64,000 nucleotides of DNA, taken from positions 1 to 64,000 of the forward strand of contig NZ_CP117260.1 in the NCBI RefSeq assembly GCF_003240565.2, in the 5' to 3' direction. Below, one piece after another: positions 28,608 to 36,273 of this stretch. Under the pieces are notes generated by a model. It searched no databases, was not told where the DNA came from, and worked only from the letters and a program-made list of their open reading frames with translations. Numbering within the stretch: the stretch's first letter is position 1; each line of letters begins with the position of its first letter. The translations under genes and the position numbers were made by a program. Origin of the DNA: Rhizobium tumorigenes. Its GTDB lineage: Bacteria > Pseudomonadota > Alphaproteobacteria > Rhizobiales > Rhizobiaceae.

Positions 28608-28826
28608 GTGGCGAAAGTGGTTGTAATCGGACTGCCAGGGGAAGATGGTTTGTGGATCGCGGATTTTGGTGCGGGGACAGTGACCGCTCTTGCCGCCCCG
28701 ACTTCCGGAGCGCTCAAACAGGCGAACGATCTGAGGGCGGCCGGCGCTACGGTCGTAAAAGGGGTCGATCTGGCGGTTGCCGTTAGCAGTACGGCCGACG
28801 TGGCCTCCGGGTTCCTCGACGGCTAG
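28608..28826 (+). CDS. Small 72-residue protein of unknown function
   Basis: Starts at GTG 28608, eight bases after AAGGGG, 23 bases behind the SARP-like regulator gene and on its strand. The protein (MAKVVVIGLPGEDGLWIADF at the N-terminus) has no signal peptide or membrane helix. Its C-terminal half is small and hydrophobic, rich in Ala, Val, Gly and Thr. I do not recognise a family with certainty. Close coupling to the regulator makes it a candidate accessory factor or peptide substrate of the enzymes encoded at 29.9-34.7 kb. The frame is open well upstream into the regulator gene, so only the Shine-Dalgarno supports this start. Confidence 0.55.
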   Translation: MAKVVVIGLPGEDGLWIADFGAGTVTALAAPTSGALKQANDLRAAGATVVKGVDLAVAVSSTADVASGFLDG

Positions 28827-28930
28827 TGCCTCGTTTCCCGGGTTGCGCGGCGGGGTGGCAGAGGCTACCACAGTCAGGCAATCACACGCTGCAAGCCTTG
28901 AATAGGCCATTCGTGAAGAGGGGAACACCG

Positions 28931-29815
28931 ATGAAAGCACTTTCACTCCTGGCAATGTTGAGCGCCTCCGTTGCCGGACAAGCCTTTGCGATCGAGACCG
29001 GGCCGGTTGCGGCGGAACCTGCGGCGAAGACATTCACAGTCGGCAGTATCAAGGTGACGGCGCTGCGAGATGCGCAGTTCGTTGCAGCCAATGACGGAAA
29101 GCTTTTTGGCGTCGGGATTGAACCGGAGGCCGTTTCCAAGGTGCTGAAGGCAGCCGGACAGCCGACTGACCGTGTCACGCTCAGTGTCGACGGGCTGCTC
29201 GTTCAGTCCGGCAACCAGAAAATCCTGATCGATACCGGCCTTGGGCCATCGGCGCACGGTGTTCTGCTGGAAAGCCTTGCCAAGGCCGGGAGCAAGCCCG
29301 AGGACATTTCCGACGTGCTGATCACCCATGTTCACGGCGATCACATCGGCGGGCTGGTAAAGGCGGATGGCTCGCTCGCATTCGCCAACGCGACGATCCG
29401 CATTTCGGCGCCCGACTGGACGTGGCTGCAGACCCAGCCGAAGATGGCTGCGCTGGTGACCGCCATCACGCCCAAGGTCAAGATATTCGCGCCTGGCGAC
29501 AGCGTTGCCGAGGGCATCACCTCCGTGCCGATCAAGGGACATACCCCGGGTCATGTCGGCTATCAGATTGTCTCCGGCAAGAAGCGGCTTCTGGACATCG
29601 GTGACACCGCCCATAGCTCCATTGTATCGCTAGCCGAGCCCGATTGGGCGATGGGCTTCGACAACGATGCAGCCGAGGGCAAGGTCAGCCGCCGGGAAAT
29701 CCTGTCGCAGCTTGCCAAGGATCACGAGCTTATCTTTGCACCTCACTTCCCGTTTCCGGGTGTCGGCCACATCGTGGCAGTGGGCGATCACTTCGCCTGG
29801 AAGCCGCAAAAGTAA
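28931..29815 (+). CDS. Exported metallo-beta-lactamase-fold hydrolase
   Basis: 294-residue protein with a Sec signal peptide (MKALSLLAMLSASVAGQAFA). The MBL metal motif HVHGDH is at H133-H138, with further ligands in GHTPGHVGY and LDIGDTAHS and a C-terminal FAPHFPFPG. This set matches the group of MBL hydrolases that includes AHL lactonase-like enzymes and other lactone or ester hydrolases; the substrate is unknown. ATG 28931 follows GAGGGGAACACC. It follows the 72-residue gene by 104 bases and converges on the PLP decarboxylase operon, with an inverted repeat between. Confidence 0.88.
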   Translation: MKALSLLAMLSASVAGQAFAIETGPVAAEPAAKTFTVGSIKVTALRDAQFVAANDGKLFGVGIEPEAVSKVLKAAGQPTDRVTLSVDGLLVQSGNQKILIDTGLGPSAHGVLLESLAKAGSKPEDISDVLITHVHGDHIGGLVKADGSLAFANATIRISAPDWTWLQTQPKMAALVTAITPKVKIFAPGDSVAEGITSVPIKGHTPGHVGYQIVSGKKRLLDIGDTAHSSIVSLAEPDWAMGFDNDAAEGKVSRREILSQLAKDHELIFAPHFPFPGVGHIVAVGDHFAWKPQK

Positions 29816-29915: not shown

Positions 29916-31376
29916 TCAGTAGCCCTTGTCGGCCAGATAGCTGTCGATGATGTCGATGAAGCTGTCGATATCGGCGGATGTCGTCCTGTGGTTGACGATT
30001 GCGCAGCGCACCGCCAGCTCGCCGCCGACCGTCGTCCAGGACGGGGCAGCCAGGCCGGATTGCTGGAGGTCGAGCACCAGATCCCGGACAAAATCGGAAC
30101 CTGCTCCGCGAACACCGAAGCAGACGATGTTCAAGGCGACCGGTGCCCTGAGTTCCAGCAGCGGGTGCAGCTCGATATGACGGGCCAGATGGGATGCGAG
30201 TTCGCAGGTGCGCGCGATGGAATTGCCGATGCGCTCCGTGCCGAGCGTTTCGATCGTCATCCAGGTCTTTAGCGCCCGAAAGCCGCGCGACAGATCGGGG
30301 CCGAGATCGCAGGGCCAGGTCTCACCGGCTGCAAGGCCGCGATCAGCGCGCTGGAGATAGGCTGCCGGCTGCGCGAAAGCCCGCTTGTGGGCGGCACCGT
30401 CCCTGACCAGCAGAAACCCGGCATCATAGGGAACATGGCCCCATTTGTGGAAGTCCAGCGCCACAGAGGCTGATTTCTCGATGCCCGCAAACAGATCCCG
30501 CAGATCGTCCGAAAGCACTGCCAAAGCGCCGATGGCGCCGTCGACGTGGAACCACAGATTTTCCTGGACCGCGATGTCGGCGATAACAGAAAGCGGATCG
30601 ATGGCCCCGGTATTGACGGTGCCGGCAGTGCCGACGACGAGAAACGGCAGGTGTCCGGCGGCACGGTCGGCGTCGATCATGGCGCGCAGCACGCCCGTTT
30701 GCATTCGTCCGTCAGCGTCCACAGCCACCGTTCGCAAATTGGCCGAGCCTATGCCGGAAAGCTCCATCGCCTGGGCGATGCAGCCATGGGCTTCGCTTGA
30801 GGTATAGGCGACGAGTTGACGGTCCCGATTCCACAAGCCGTTTTGGCGGACGGACTGGCCGAGAGCCTCGGTTCTGGCGATCGTCACGGCCAGGAAGTTG
30901 GCCATGGAGGAGCCTGTGAGAAACAGGCCGCTGGCGCCTTGGGGATAGCCGAGGGCCTCGCTCATCCAGCGGACGATCTGCTGCTCGACCTCCAGCCCGA
31001 CATGGTCGCGGCCGCCGCAGTTGAGATTCATTCCGGCAGCGACGATCTCGGCCACCATGCCGACGGGCGTGCCCGCGCCGTGGACCCAGCCCATGAACAG
31101 CGGATGCAGGTTGCCGGTGCCGAAGGGAAGGATGTGGGTACGGACGTCATCGAGGATGTCGCCGAGTTCGCGGGGGTCTGCAGGCAACGGACGGGCAAAC
31201 CGGGCGCGCGTTTCGGCGGCCGGCGGTTGCCAAACCGGCCGTTCGCGGACGGTCTCGATATGGCTGATCATGTCGTCCAGCATGCCGTGGGCCAGCGCGC
31301 GAAATTCGCTCCAGTCCACCGGGTCTAGGCTGGTGGAGCGCTCAGCCGTTATATCGCCGCGCGTCCCTTCCGGCAT
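29916..31376 (-). CDS. Group II PLP-dependent decarboxylase (aromatic amino acid/glutamate decarboxylase family)
   Basis: Fold-type I PLP enzyme of the pyridoxal-dependent decarboxylase family, 486 aa. Seen: HPLFMGWVHGAGTPVGMVAEIVAAGMN (substrate/PLP entrance), GLFLTGSSMANFLAVTIAR, the PLP-pocket Asp in NLWFHVDGAIGALA and the Schiff-base lysine about K311 in LDFHKWGHVPYD. Start ATG 31376 shares one base with the stop of the preceding gene (TGATG), so the two are translationally coupled; the frame continues upstream but inside that gene. The family removes CO2 from aromatic or acidic amino acids; some members are aldehyde synthases. It is last in a three-gene operon with another PLP enzyme and an ATP-grasp protein. 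Confidence 0.88.
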   Translation of the reverse strand: MPEGTRGDITAERSTSLDPVDWSEFRALAHGMLDDMISHIETVRERPVWQPPAAETRARFARPLPADPRELGDILDDVRTHILPFGTGNLHPLFMGWVHGAGTPVGMVAEIVAAGMNLNCGGRDHVGLEVEQQIVRWMSEALGYPQGASGLFLTGSSMANFLAVTIARTEALGQSVRQNGLWNRDRQLVAYTSSEAHGCIAQAMELSGIGSANLRTVAVDADGRMQTGVLRAMIDADRAAGHLPFLVVGTAGTVNTGAIDPLSVIADIAVQENLWFHVDGAIGALAVLSDDLRDLFAGIEKSASVALDFHKWGHVPYDAGFLLVRDGAAHKRAFAQPAAYLQRADRGLAAGETWPCDLGPDLSRGFRALKTWMTIETLGTERIGNSIARTCELASHLARHIELHPLLELRAPVALNIVCFGVRGAGSDFVRDLVLDLQQSGLAAPSWTTVGGELAVRCAIVNHRTTSADIDSFIDIIDSYLADKGY

Positions 31377-32920
31377 CAGAGAGCCCGAACGTGGTGAAGA
31401 ACGGCCGCCAGCTTGTCGAACACTGCGTCGAGCCGCGATTCGACCGGATGGAATGCCTGGTGCAACGGCAGAGCCGCTGCCATGCGGGCCGAGACATCGA
31501 GAACGTCGCTCGCCGAGGCCGCGACCCGCAATACTGTGCGAGATCCCAGGCGGACGGCTTGGCCGAGATGGCAAACGGGACCGTCGTCGCGTTCGCGCAT
31601 GAGCAGATGGATCATCTGCGAGTGCTCGAAGGAGGCAAAGCCGCCGGTGCGGTTTGAGATCGTGAAGGGCACGATCGTTCGAGCGTCCAGATGGGCGCCC
31701 TCATCGTTGGCGTGCAGGCGGATACCGGCGACGCTGTCGATACGCGTGCGTACCAGTTTCACGAAATGGGCCTTGATGAGGGCCTGCTCGTCGTGCGGGA
31801 TGCCGGCGTAGCGATCGAGGGCGGCCGAGGCTGCTACCCATCGAAGGCCGAGGCCGAGGTTAAAGTGCGAGCCGAATGTGAAATCCATCTTTTCGCGAAG
31901 TGCCGATGGCCAGTCATGGGCTGCCGTGTAGGCCGAAAGGCCGGACGGAATAGCGCCGCTGGTGGCGAGTGCCTCACCGAGGGAGGTCGGCACAAGGAGG
32001 GCGCCGGAAAAGGGTGGCCCGCCGACGAATTTTGAGCCAGTCAGTACGACAAGGAAGCCGTCGGCAAGATCCTGCCGGATATCGGACGCCGAGCAGCGGA
32101 ACTGACAGGCATCGACGATCACATGCACGCGGCCTGGCGCAAGCGAAGCCGCATGCCGAGCTGCCTGCCTGGTCACGCCGGACAGGCCTGTCTTCGATGT
32201 ATCGAGCACATGGACGAGGACGTCGCGGTCGCGCTTCAGTTCCCGCTCGACGGCCGCGATCATGTCATCGTCGATGTCGCCCTGCCGGCGCGGTTCGCCT
32301 TCGGCATTGCGGATGGTTACGGTGCACACCTCGATGCGGTCGGGATCGAGGCCACCGAGCGGCTTCCCGGCTTCGACGGTGCTGCCGAGGGCAGCAAGAT
32401 CCGAATAGTGGCATCCGGCTGCAGCACGGGGCACACCGCTGCCGGTCTCCTCGGGGGCAACGAGGATATTGGTAAGGGGCCGCGCGGAAAGCTCTGCAAA
32501 CAGGCAAAGGGCCATTAACTCCGCGTCTGTCCCGGAGGCTGCGAGAATGATCTCCGCGTCGGTAGACCCAAGGCTGGTGGCGATGCCCTTACGGATATCG
32601 GCAAACCATTGGTCGATTGCCACCGGATCGGCGGATTGGCGATCAACGAGCCGTTCTAGAGCGATCCCGGCCGCGCGGAACCCGTCGCCGGATATATTGC
32701 TGGCCGTCGTCGACGAAAACGAAATTTCGTGTTCGGCGGGCGTCGTCAACGTGCCGTAGCGGTTTCGCCGATGGACGGGATCCGGCGAAATGCGCTGGTC
32801 GCCGCCGGCCCCTAGCAGCAGCGGAACGGAGGCGAGCGACTGCCCTAGAAACGCTGTCTCGGCTGGTGTCGATGATGGATCGACTGGCATCGGTAGGATT
32901 AGACGCTGACTTGCAGCCAT
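31376..32920 (-). CDS. PLP-dependent fold-type I enzyme of unknown specificity
   Basis: 514 aa. The PLP-binding pattern is visible: a Gly/Thr-rich phosphate loop (LAASGTDAELMALCLF, about residues 125-140), the cofactor-ring Asp in VHVIVDACQFRCS (about 270), and the Schiff-base lysine about K297 in VVLTGSKFVGGPPFSG. DACQ in place of DxxH resembles class V aminotransferase and cysteine-desulfurase relatives. The N-terminal ~70 residues (RNRYGTLTTPAEHEISFSSTTASNIS) are not a family I know. ATG 32920 follows GGAG by eight bases. It is coupled to the downstream decarboxylase gene and lies 34 bases after the ATP-grasp gene. Function is open: transaminase, lyase or decarboxylase. Confidence 0.8.
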   Translation of the reverse strand: MAASQRLILPMPVDPSSTPAETAFLGQSLASVPLLLGAGGDQRISPDPVHRRNRYGTLTTPAEHEISFSSTTASNISGDGFRAAGIALERLVDRQSADPVAIDQWFADIRKGIATSLGSTDAEIILAASGTDAELMALCLFAELSARPLTNILVAPEETGSGVPRAAAGCHYSDLAALGSTVEAGKPLGGLDPDRIEVCTVTIRNAEGEPRRQGDIDDDMIAAVERELKRDRDVLVHVLDTSKTGLSGVTRQAARHAASLAPGRVHVIVDACQFRCSASDIRQDLADGFLVVLTGSKFVGGPPFSGALLVPTSLGEALATSGAIPSGLSAYTAAHDWPSALREKMDFTFGSHFNLGLGLRWVAASAALDRYAGIPHDEQALIKAHFVKLVRTRIDSVAGIRLHANDEGAHLDARTIVPFTISNRTGGFASFEHSQMIHLLMRERDDGPVCHLGQAVRLGSRTVLRVAASASDVLDVSARMAAALPLHQAFHPVESRLDAVFDKLAAVLHHVRAL

Positions 32921-32954: not shown

Positions 32955-34667
32955 TCAGAGAATGGGCTCGTCGACCGCCACGGCGCCGGCGATATAGGAG
33001 ATTTGTGTTTCGTGCTGGATCAGCGGCGCAAGATCACGGGCGCGCTGGGTAAACTCCAGCCCGCAACGGTCGATATAAGCGCGGTCCACGCGTGCGCTGG
33101 AGCCGGGGTCGATGATCTTCTCGCCGTCCCAGAAGACTGCATGCCCGGTGTCGGGGACTGTCGGGGAGACAACGCCGATGATCCCAGGCTTGTCCCACAG
33201 CATGTAGATGCCGCTGAGAAGAACGAGGCCGCAAGCGTTGGCGACGCCGCGCATGATGGAGTGGCTCATCGGCCCGCCCAGGGGGAACCGGGGGTCGCTT
33301 TTGGTCGCCATGTCCTGGATGTCTTCGTAGGTCCTGCCGGAAAACATCGCCAGCGCACAGATCAGGCAGTCGTCGTCGGTTCTCTGGTAGACAGCCGGTT
33401 TCCCCGTATGGGCACAGGTGACATCGGAGGTGGAGGTCGCGCGCAGCATGCGATCTTTCAAGGCGCCCTCGAAGGCGGCGAACAGCTTGGTCGTCGCCTG
33501 TTTTTTATAGGGGAAGACCTTTTCGGAATCCATCGAGTGGACGATCATGGCGACGTCCGCTTCGAACATCAGCAGCCGTCCGTCTGACAACTCGGCACAA
33601 TCGATGGCGAAGTAGTCGAGCCCGAAGCGGCGATGCAGGGCATCAAAGGCCGCGGCGTGGCGGACGGCGAAGTCGGTGTCGAAACTGGCCATCCATCGGC
33701 CTTCTTCCTCGCGGCGTTCGGCGTGCTCAGCCATGCCGGCGCTGAGGTAGTGGACCATCCAGTGGTCGGAAATCGCCAGATGGCTGACATAGGCCTTGCC
33801 ATTGATGAAGGCGATGCGCTGCTTGCGGAACTTTCCGTCCGTATCACTGTAGTCGATGAAAGGCGTCAGGTAGAATTCGGTGTCGGCGTGCGCGGCGAGA
33901 TAGCCCGAAAGCTCCCAGCGGGCCGAGATTTTCTCCATGCCCTTGCCGGCATGCGTGCCGTGTGGCCGGACGATGATCGGAAAGCTCGTTGCGTCGAGGA
34001 TGGAGCCCAGTTCGATTTCGCCAGCGGCGAGCCGCTGAAGCTTCTGACGATCGACGCGAACGGTTGCCGGCGCGAGAACCCAGCGCTCGTCCCTGAAGGC
34101 ATTTGAAACGCCGTCCCTGGAAAGATCCATGATGGACTGCGGCGCATTGTTCAGTATCGGTCCTGACCAGTCGCGCAAAAGCCGCTTGAGGTTTTCGAGC
34201 ACCGGGAGATTGTCCGTGGATTCACCGACTGCGACAAAGGCGACGTCGTGTGCGGGGATATCGGAGAGATCCTGGGTTTCCGCGTCGATATAATAGAGCA
34301 GGAGGTTGGTATCGGAATGCTCGAGCAGAAACTCGATCGGCGTATTTGCCATGAAATCGCCAGCCGTCATGAACACCAGGATGTCCAGGCCTGTACCCTT
34401 GCCGTTCTGGATCCGATAATGGCGGCTGATGTCGAGTGCAGCCTTCTGGCTGATGACTGCCTTTTCCTTCTCTCCCACCGTATGCAGGACGATCGAGGCA
34501 TCCATAAAGGCGGCAGCATCGCCGAGATCGGCGGAAGCCCGCTCCAGCAGTTGGTTCCAGAGGGGTGTGATATCTCTCTGCTCATAGATCGCCCGCACGA
34601 TCGGCGCCTTGCCGATGATCAGGTTGGGGTCCGCAAATGTCTGGATCTGAGCCGCTGCACCAATCAA
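32955..34667 (-). CDS. ATP-grasp ligase fused to a C39-like cysteine peptidase domain
   Basis: 570 aa with three parts. Residues ~1-170: helical TPR-like segment followed by an alpha/beta region (LDILVFMTAGDFMANTPIEFLLE). Residues ~170-400: ATP-grasp fold of RimK type, with PIIVRPHGTHAGKGMEKI as the nucleotide loop and YFAIDCAELSDGRLLMFEAD as the Mg-binding segment. Residues ~425-560: papain-like C39-type domain with Gln and Cys in YQRTDDDCLICAL (Cys about 434), His in DTGHAVFWDG (about 509) and Asp in KIIDPGS (about 520), a complete Cys-His-Asp set. Start is TTG 34667. ATP-grasp enzymes join a carboxylate to an amine; a fused peptidase could trim or transfer the product. First gene of the operon. 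I do not know a described protein with this layout. Confidence 0.85.
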   Translation of the reverse strand: MIGAAAQIQTFADPNLIIGKAPIVRAIYEQRDITPLWNQLLERASADLGDAAAFMDASIVLHTVGEKEKAVISQKAALDISRHYRIQNGKGTGLDILVFMTAGDFMANTPIEFLLEHSDTNLLLYYIDAETQDLSDIPAHDVAFVAVGESTDNLPVLENLKRLLRDWSGPILNNAPQSIMDLSRDGVSNAFRDERWVLAPATVRVDRQKLQRLAAGEIELGSILDATSFPIIVRPHGTHAGKGMEKISARWELSGYLAAHADTEFYLTPFIDYSDTDGKFRKQRIAFINGKAYVSHLAISDHWMVHYLSAGMAEHAERREEEGRWMASFDTDFAVRHAAAFDALHRRFGLDYFAIDCAELSDGRLLMFEADVAMIVHSMDSEKVFPYKKQATTKLFAAFEGALKDRMLRATSTSDVTCAHTGKPAVYQRTDDDCLICALAMFSGRTYEDIQDMATKSDPRFPLGGPMSHSIMRGVANACGLVLLSGIYMLWDKPGIIGVVSPTVPDTGHAVFWDGEKIIDPGSSARVDRAYIDRCGLEFTQRARDLAPLIQHETQISYIAGAVAVDEPIL

Positions 34668-35154: not shown

Positions 35155-36273
35155 ATGATGATTAAGGGTCTTCTCCTTGCATCGGCTGCCGCCCTCTCGG
35201 CATTCTCGGCTGCCAATGCGGCGGACGCAATTGTTGCAGCTGAGCCGGAACCGCTCGAATACGTTCGTATTTGCGATGCCTACGGCGCCGGCTACTTCTA
35301 CATTCCAGGCACGGAAACCTGCCTGAAGATCGGTGGCATGGTTCGTACCGAAGGCGAGTGGAAAGATGCCTACCAGCCTGATCACAAGATCGGCACGCTT
35401 TGGCACACCCGCGCTGAACTCAGCCTCGACACTGCCAGCGATACCGAATACGGCGCGCTGAAGACCGACATGGTCATGCGTTGGGACTCGCAGGAAGGCA
35501 ATAACTCGACCAAGCTGCTGTTTGCCAATATCAGCCTCGGCGGCTTCCTCGTCGGCAAGGCCGACTCGCAGTTCTCGTCCTATCCAGGCTACGCTGGCGA
35601 CATCATCCAGGACGACGTGGTTTCCTACGGCCCTGGACCAACGAACACCGAACTCAACCAGCTGACCTACACGTTTGATCCGGGCAATGGCTTCACGGCC
35701 GTCGCTTCGATCGAAGACAGCAATTCGAGCGGCGACAGCTTGTACGACTCCAGCTTCACCCAGAGCAACGGCAAAAGCTGGCAGATCTCCAAGAATGACC
35801 AGTACGTTCCAGACGGCGTCCTGGGCTTCGGCTTCAAGTCGGGCGCATGGGGCATCAAGGTTGTCGGCGGCTACGACTCGATCGTTGAAGAAGGCGCCAT
35901 CAAGGCTCGCGTCGATGCCGATTTTGGCACCTTCTCGGCATTCCTGATGGGCGGTTGGAACACAGACGGCGACAAGCTCAACAAGTATGCTTCGGGCTAT
36001 GTGACCGACGGCGCTTGCCCTGCGAACAAGGAAGAGCTTTGCGGCTGGGGTGATTGGGCAGTCTGGGGCGGTGGTTCTGCAACCATCAACGACAAGCTCA
36101 AGGCCAACGTTCAGGTCGCCTACACAGACTCGAAGATCTTTGCCGCTGCTGCGAACGTCAAGTTCCAGCCAGTCAAGGGCCTGACAGTCGAGCCTGAAGT
36201 CGAATACACCAACTGGGATTCGACAAACGAACACTCCTGGGCTGGTATCCTGCGTTTCCAGCGCAGCTTCTGA
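35155..36273 (+). CDS. Outer-membrane porin (Porin_2 / RopA-Omp2b type)
   Basis: 372-residue trimeric-porin-type protein of alphaproteobacteria. A signal peptide (MMIKGLLLASAAALSAFSAANAADA) is followed by the family block PEPLEYVRICDAYGAGYFYIPGTETCLKIGG with its two conserved cysteines, repeated amphipathic beta strands, and a terminal strand ending in RFQRSF with C-terminal Phe. This gives general diffusion of small solutes through the outer membrane. Codon use is strongly biased, as in highly expressed genes. A textbook terminator follows 26 bases after the stop. Confidence 0.96.
   Translation: MMIKGLLLASAAALSAFSAANAADAIVAAEPEPLEYVRICDAYGAGYFYIPGTETCLKIGGMVRTEGEWKDAYQPDHKIGTLWHTRAELSLDTASDTEYGALKTDMVMRWDSQEGNNSTKLLFANISLGGFLVGKADSQFSSYPGYAGDIIQDDVVSYGPGPTNTELNQLTYTFDPGNGFTAVASIEDSNSSGDSLYDSSFTQSNGKSWQISKNDQYVPDGVLGFGFKSGAWGIKVVGGYDSIVEEGAIKARVDADFGTFSAFLMGGWNTDGDKLNKYASGYVTDGACPANKEELCGWGDWAVWGGGSATINDKLKANVQVAYTDSKIFAAAANVKFQPVKGLTVEPEVEYTNWDSTNEHSWAGILRFQRSF

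Follow-up and report, generated by a model that had tools for sequence, protein, structure and literature searches.

A RimK-like ATP-grasp ligase fused to a C39-like cysteine domain in Rhizobium tumorigenes, its association with a pyridoxal-dependent decarboxylase, and the flagellar gene clusters around some of its C39-less relatives

A ligase and a C39-like cysteine domain in one chain

This study analyzed a 64,000-nucleotide stretch of Rhizobium tumorigenes DNA (contig NZ_CP117260.1, positions 1 to 64,000; hereafter the window), in which a gene on the reverse strand (32955..34667) encodes an ATP-grasp ligase fused to a C39-like papain domain (P0001, 570 aa). An original prediction, made from the sequence alone, had assigned to this single chain a tetratricopeptide repeat (TPR)-like start, a RimK-type ATP-grasp domain, and a papain/C39-like domain; structure models of the chain bore this arrangement out and supported both the ATP-grasp and the papain/C39-like folds. 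The TPR-like helical hairpins (34428..34610, reverse strand, approximately residues 20-80) form four modeled helices (residues 20-28, 34-46, 51-63, and 67-80), and the family profile matched designed TPR proteins in single repeats only, with E values of 0.01-0.6. They are followed by the RimK/LysX-like ATP-grasp domain (33438..34388, reverse strand, approximately residues 94-410), whose fold is closest to that of RimK/LysX, and by the C39/papain-like cysteine domain (33033..33431, reverse strand, approximately residues 413-545). A sequence search of the PDB with the window protein retrieved only synapsins (E values of 2e-5 to 9e-5) and no characterized close relative, as the prediction of few characterized relatives had anticipated.

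The residues expected of a cysteine enzyme were examined in alignment A2, which contains 45 domain-bearing rows. Gln428, an oxyanion-type residue (codon 33384..33386), Asp433, His509 (33141..33143), and Asp520 (33108..33110) were invariant in all 45 rows, and Cys434, the presumed nucleophile (33366..33368), was retained in 43; all of these codons lie on the reverse strand. The Gln/Cys/His/Asp set, which had been described as intact, is thus apparently complete in the alignment and the models. Two proteins, P0059 and P0063, carry C39-like domains with Ala or Ser in place of Cys434 and retain the His and Asp. In alignment A4 (28 rows comprising the window protein, separate small proteins, and some fragments), the Cys434 column was Cys in all 25 covering rows, most of which were separate proteins of approximately 155 aa. 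Compared with eight relatives, the domain exhibited ratios of nonsynonymous to synonymous substitution (dN/dS) of 0.045-0.136, with dS mostly saturated. These values indicate that the C39-like domain is under strong constraint and purifying selection. Pfam gave no C39 match for the full window protein and only weak C39 matches for 5 of 11 isolated domain sequences (best E value 0.028); because no curated match beyond these was obtained, we classified the domain as C39-like rather than C39.

Two long-TPR ATP-grasp paralogs are also encoded in the genome of the window (L086, G000:C1:1990888-1991811, and L087, C1:2831194-2832078). Both retain the usual Glu-Val-Asn metal motif, and no PLP (pyridoxal phosphate) enzyme partner was seen adjoining either of them.

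The ligase gene heads a three-gene operon

The ligase gene is the first of three genes arranged as an operon. A 34-base gap separates it from PLP1 (31376..32920, reverse strand), which encodes a divergent enzyme, and PLP1 in turn overlaps PLPdc (29916..31376, reverse strand) by 1 base in the sequence TGATG. The PLPdc start, located 1 base inside the PLP1 stop, agrees with the annotated R. tumorigenes ortholog, and the same layout is annotated in this 98.6% identical ortholog, which lies on an R. tumorigenes plasmid. PLPdc encodes a group II pyridoxal-dependent decarboxylase of 486 aa (PF00282, E value 1e-53), and among its closest relatives of solved structure are tryptophan, DOPA, and diaminobutyrate decarboxylases.

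PLP1 matched nothing in Pfam or NCBIfam, and a profile search of the PDB returned nothing relevant; profile comparisons with a SerC-type protein (E value 0.09) and with PLPdc (E value 0.39) were not significant. Asp270 and Lys297, the latter within a TGSKF motif, were invariant in a 17-row alignment. Because of these two residues, we read PLP1 as probably a fold-type-I PLP enzyme, an assignment that has these motifs as its sole basis. All three genes occurred together in the nine counted C39-bearing loci (9/9) and in 43 of the 95 C39-less loci.

The ligase is fused to different partners in other genomes

When a fused protein of locus L036 was used as the query, 77 proteins were listed, 70 of them new. 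Fusions of PLPdc with the ATP-grasp ligase were found in 25 of the 70 new proteins (decarboxylase first in 21, ligase first in 4), and fusions of the ligase with PLP1 in another 4/70. The ligase is therefore a hub with three alternative fusion partners: the decarboxylase, PLP1, and the C39-like domain. Most simply, the decarboxylase would supply the amine that the ligase uses as its substrate.

The C39-like domain is an add-on

The C39 domain was present in 10 of 70 genome loci carrying ligase relatives (L001-L009 and L012). We placed the relatives on a tree of 95 rows, which was built by a quick method, included 27 hand-picked proteins, and left out open reading frames (ORFs) longer than 650 aa (hence the fused L036 and L069), loci numbered above L070, and L001, a near-copy of the window. 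All C39 carriers (31 of the 95 rows) fell within one 58-row clade, the support of which was only 87. Inside this clade, presence and absence of the domain alternate, with at least 13 changes, 10 of them forced by well-supported branches. The C39 domain is thus an add-on whose state changed at least ten times on the tree. The suggestion that ligation is coupled to processing is not supported as a description of an essential unit, given these changes and the absence of the domain from 60 of the 70 loci; it may still apply if the C39-like domain is an optional accessory of a ligase linked to a decarboxylase.

No remnant of the domain was detected in 21 close C39-less loci (best tblastn E value 1.5). 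Among the 51 genomes and records searched behind the relative loci, six contained a C39-like domain, and all six were the fused copies. A C39-like profile search of 397 order-level and 385 class-level genomes returned the genome of the window only, a weak negative because scoring was confined to the 10 best first-look candidates in each genome; a search of 150 genomes of one family, run with no positive control, returned none.

Separate small C39-like proteins also exist: of the 27 rows of A4 besides the window protein, 17 begin shortly before a CAHTG-type motif. Some are encoded on contigs 117 kb to 4.5 Mb in length. On the basis of these starts and large contigs, we regard them as genes in their own right. 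In a viral contig collection, the ligase-family profile A2 found no relative, and the C39-like profile A4 found one phage C39-like protein. A 150-aa protein on a viral contig (L099:7971-8423) matched the C39-like profile at 31 bits and retains the Asp-Cys and Gly-His-Ala-Val-x-Trp-Asp-Gly motifs.

Distant C39-less relatives with PLPdc often lie near flagellar genes

We scored a locus as flagellar when a flagellar gene lay within 8 kb of the ligase gene, using queries cut from L037, L040, L100, and L141. These source loci match themselves in the test, and the identities of their flagellar genes were assigned by Pfam; the gene in L037 that we take to be flgL was named from its position, with no Pfam match. 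Comparison groups within the ligase family served as the control. Among distant C39-less loci with PLPdc, flagellar genes were nearby in 24 of 37, comprising 8 of 11 loci from the genome collection, 8 of 18 from a phylum sample, and 8 of 8 picked loci, which had been chosen because the same paralog adjoined flagellins in smaller fetches. The phylum sample consisted of 27 loci from 28 hit genomes among 398 searched, the 28th being the genome of the window; several of its negatives come from short contigs (L160-L166, 5-12.5 kb), and its count is lowered accordingly. Among distant relatives without PLPdc, by comparison, flagellar genes were nearby in none of 35 (0/28 and 0/7). When the test was repeated without self-matches and without the L141 queries, 22 loci were flagged at an E value of 1e-5, with flagellar genes counted anywhere in the locus; L141 and L100 were not among them, and both rest on Pfam.

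In seven phylum-sample positives of one genus (g41) of the window's order, the module lies between genes for flagellins and FlbT and those for FlgL-like, FlgK, and FlgE proteins. In L141, the eighth positive of the phylum sample, Pfam identified FlaG and FliD directly upstream. In Ferrovaceae and related metagenome-assembled genomes, the module abuts the FlgA-FlgE genes. Within the window's own genus, a paralog 49-52% identical to the ligase forms a ligase-decarboxylase pair amid flagellin genes in all eight fetched loci (L100-L107), its ligase being C39-less and a TPR-GT41 protein of the FlmG type lying nearby. Smaller fetches show flagellins beside this paralog in three more genomes; of the 12 places where it was found, all 11 examined (every one but G031) had them. 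The ligase and decarboxylase of L100-L107 are a candidate flagellin-modification pair in their own right.

Comparison with known systems

ATP-grasp ligases phosphorylate a carboxylate, which is then attacked by an amine (PMC12568646). In E-64 clusters, a PLP decarboxylase is paired with an ATP-grasp ligase, and the decarboxylase was dispensable in the test host (PMC12568646). In trypanothione synthetase, an N-terminal cysteine amidase reverses the reaction of the C-terminal ATP-grasp synthetase (PMC11124245), and the glutamyl ligase RimK is partnered by the protease RimB (PMC9855851).

It had been predicted that no described family has the layout of the window protein. This part of the prediction fails because trypanothione synthetase joins a ligase and a papain-like amidase in one chain, in the reverse order (PMC11124245). 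Glutathionylspermidine synthetase/amidase and trypanothione synthetase, like the window protein, combine an ATP-grasp amine ligase with a papain-superfamily cysteine amidase (PMC11124245, PMC10318531). By this analogy, the layout has a precedent, and enzymes that unite a ligase with a papain-like amidase are already known. The amidase of those proteins, however, is N-terminal and of the CHAP type, whereas the window protein has its ligase at the N-terminal side and its C39-like part at the C-terminus; Pfam found no CHAP match in the window protein or the domain sequences. Those synthetase/amidases also belong to another ATP-grasp subfamily, have no TPR, and have no PLP enzymes in the operon.

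RimK, LysX, and ArgX share only 10-16% identity with the window ligase over the aligned part and differ from it in the TPR-like N-terminus, the C39 fusion, and the residues Arg234 and Asp371. Compared with the C39 peptidase domains of ComA and PCAT1 and with PeiR, the window protein has no ATP-binding cassette (ABC) transporter, only a weak Pfam C39 match, and no leader peptide that could be seen. The acyltransferase BtrH and phytochelatin synthase gave no Pfam sequence match to the window domain. Among flagellin-modifying proteins, FlmG binds and chooses flagellins through its TPR part (PMC7591256), and SfmE is an ATP-grasp-domain protein in a Shewanella flagellin-modification operon (PMC3765264). 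FlmG, however, transfers a sugar, and the window operon sits away from flagellar loci; SfmE is likened by description alone, and neither protein is known to be related to the ligase family. We found no description of a ligase/PLP1/PLPdc family with an optional C39 domain and flagellar clustering when searching an open-licence library in full text.

A proposed amide-conjugation module and its alternatives

In our reading, the family constitutes an amide-ligation module that is fed by a decarboxylase and linked to the flagellum in several lineages, with the C39-like domain as a built-in amidase or acyl-transferase. We tentatively propose that the window protein is the two-headed enzyme of such a module. 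PLPdc would make an amine; the short TPR-like part would probably steer the ATP-grasp domain, which would phosphorylate a carboxylate (a protein side chain, a C-terminus, or a small acid) and join the amine to it. Through a thioester at Cys434, the C39-like domain may then act on this bond or on the resulting product. The precedents of trypanothione synthetase and RimK/RimB suggest an amidase, which would strip off or edit the attached group in the manner of the amidase half of trypanothione synthetase; this is the foremost of the roles we consider for the domain, although a tentative one, and acyl transfer, itself doubtful, ranks next. For the C39-less branches in flagellar clusters, a flagellar protein would be the obvious candidate substrate. 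The folds, the operon, the fusions, the flagellar clustering of C39-less relatives, and purifying selection are observed, whereas the catalytic steps, the amine, the substrate, and the direction in which the C39-like domain works are inferred.

Several observations weigh against this proposal. In the usual ATP-grasp enzyme, a Lys precedes the Gly-rich loop and the metal site has the form E-x-N. Position 234, before the loop, is instead Arg in all 16 aligned rows, and position 371, the usual metal-site Asn, is Asp in 12 rows and Gly in 2; Asn itself is kept in 2 rows, those of the long-TPR paralogs from the window's own genome. Because of these departures, the standing of the ligase as a standard RimK is lowered; we retain the reading that it would work in a RimK-like way and consider the enzyme a divergent RimK-type ligase, its activity being predicted. 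Cys434 is replaced by Ala or Ser in two of the 45 rows of A2. The flagellar loci represent few lineages and are not independent counts, seven of the eight phylum-sample positives belonging to one genus, and L141 was flagged only through queries derived from itself plus Pfam. No flagellar genes were found within 8 kb of the C39-fused loci (0/9) or of close C39-less relatives (0/23), nor in the annotated surroundings of the window's ortholog. In the genome of the window, the flagellins are on contig C1 and the operon is on C6. Finally, genomes G035 and G036 hold the flagellin-side copy (L104 and L107) together with a separate copy of 59-63% identity, and the substrates of the two branches may therefore differ. 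Since the C39 branch lies away from flagellar loci, its target would differ from the flagellar one; the C39-bearing branch may have left these loci and would act on another target.

In its boldest form, the proposal describes reversible protein tagging, in which flagellar proteins of several proteobacterial lineages would receive a decarboxylase-made amine from a TPR-steered RimK-like ligase. The rhizobial C39 branch would modify another target, and its fused papain-like domain would serve as deconjugase, writer and eraser thus being combined in one chain. We consider this form speculative. If true, amine conjugation to flagellar proteins would be a type of flagellin modification distinct from glycosylation and methylation, lying in the flagellar clusters of rhizobia and iron oxidizers whose genomes have long been public, and the C39 branch, as a writer-eraser on another target, would be a counterpart of trypanothione synthetase in a new context. 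The ligase relatives near flagellum genes hint at an unstudied chemical decoration of bacterial surface proteins.

The best-surviving alternative, although a doubtful one, is a small-molecule pathway in which building blocks from PLPdc and PLP1 are linked by the ATP-grasp domain into a pseudopeptide, whose acyl group the C39-like domain transfers to a final acceptor as a BtrH-like acyl-transferase or a phytochelatin-synthase-like transpeptidase. The tabulated loci, however, contain no carrier protein, exporter, or tailoring gene conserved with the operon, and the flagellar clustering of the relatives and the TPR-like part favor a protein partner.

It is unlikely that the C39-like domain is a noncatalytic binding or regulatory module of papain fold with the ATP-grasp domain alone active. 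The domain has been lost or gained repeatedly, and the absence of a remnant from close C39-less loci implies a clean and apparently tolerated loss, which, like the replaced Cys434, would suit such a module. The invariance of Gln, Asp433, His, and Asp, the near-complete retention of Cys434 in A2 and its complete retention in A4, and the low dN/dS argue otherwise.

Modification of the envelope, with an amine added to a lipid or polysaccharide carboxylate in an antimicrobial-peptide or lipid A response, appears improbable. A cluster with an EptA-like phosphoethanolamine transferase near eight rhizobial loci (L008 with C39; L016-L021 and L068 without) keeps this role open; Pfam and NCBIfam bore out the EptA-like identity for L008 alone. 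Such a cluster is absent, however, from the window and from the C39-bearing Mesorhizobium loci, and the flagellar clustering of the relatives does not fit.

Very little speaks for maturation of a ribosomally synthesized and post-translationally modified peptide, with the ATP-grasp domain cyclizing it and the C39 domain cutting its leader: C39 peptidase-ABC transporters are often encoded in graspetide loci (PMC8939145), but the C39 domain here is of the standalone type, unattached to a transporter, and the three genes abut with gaps too small for a precursor gene. The leader-peptide cutting suggested by the original prediction likewise found no support in the ortholog region, where no precursor-like gene or peptidase ABC transporter is annotated beside the operon, precursors not having been searched for systematically or elsewhere; an amino acid ABC permease lies approximately 8 kb from the ligase gene, and no ABC transporter is fused to the ligase or annotated beside its gene.

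Neighboring genes and minor observations

A role in anti-phage defense was considered and rejected: neither the ligase nor PLP1 had a match in PADLOC, and PLPdc matched only SspA/DndA (cysteine-desulfurase-type), weakly. Loci L008, L016-L021, and L068 contain small tyrosine-phosphatase-like genes and, in several cases, response-regulator genes near the operon, Pfam having been run on L008 and L016 only. In L069 (4938-9197), the part homologous to the ligase occupies the end of a 1419-aa ORF, the remainder of which has no Pfam match, and the ORF is either a large fusion or the product of a spurious start. A SerC-type class V aminotransferase gene directly adjoins ligase relatives without PLPdc at L090:9212-10306 and L142:7700-8794. 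In the window, the operon is flanked by a gene for a metallo-beta-lactamase-fold hydrolase of the AidB-lactonase type (28826-29815) and by a Porin_2 porin gene (35155-36273), which is divergent from the operon.
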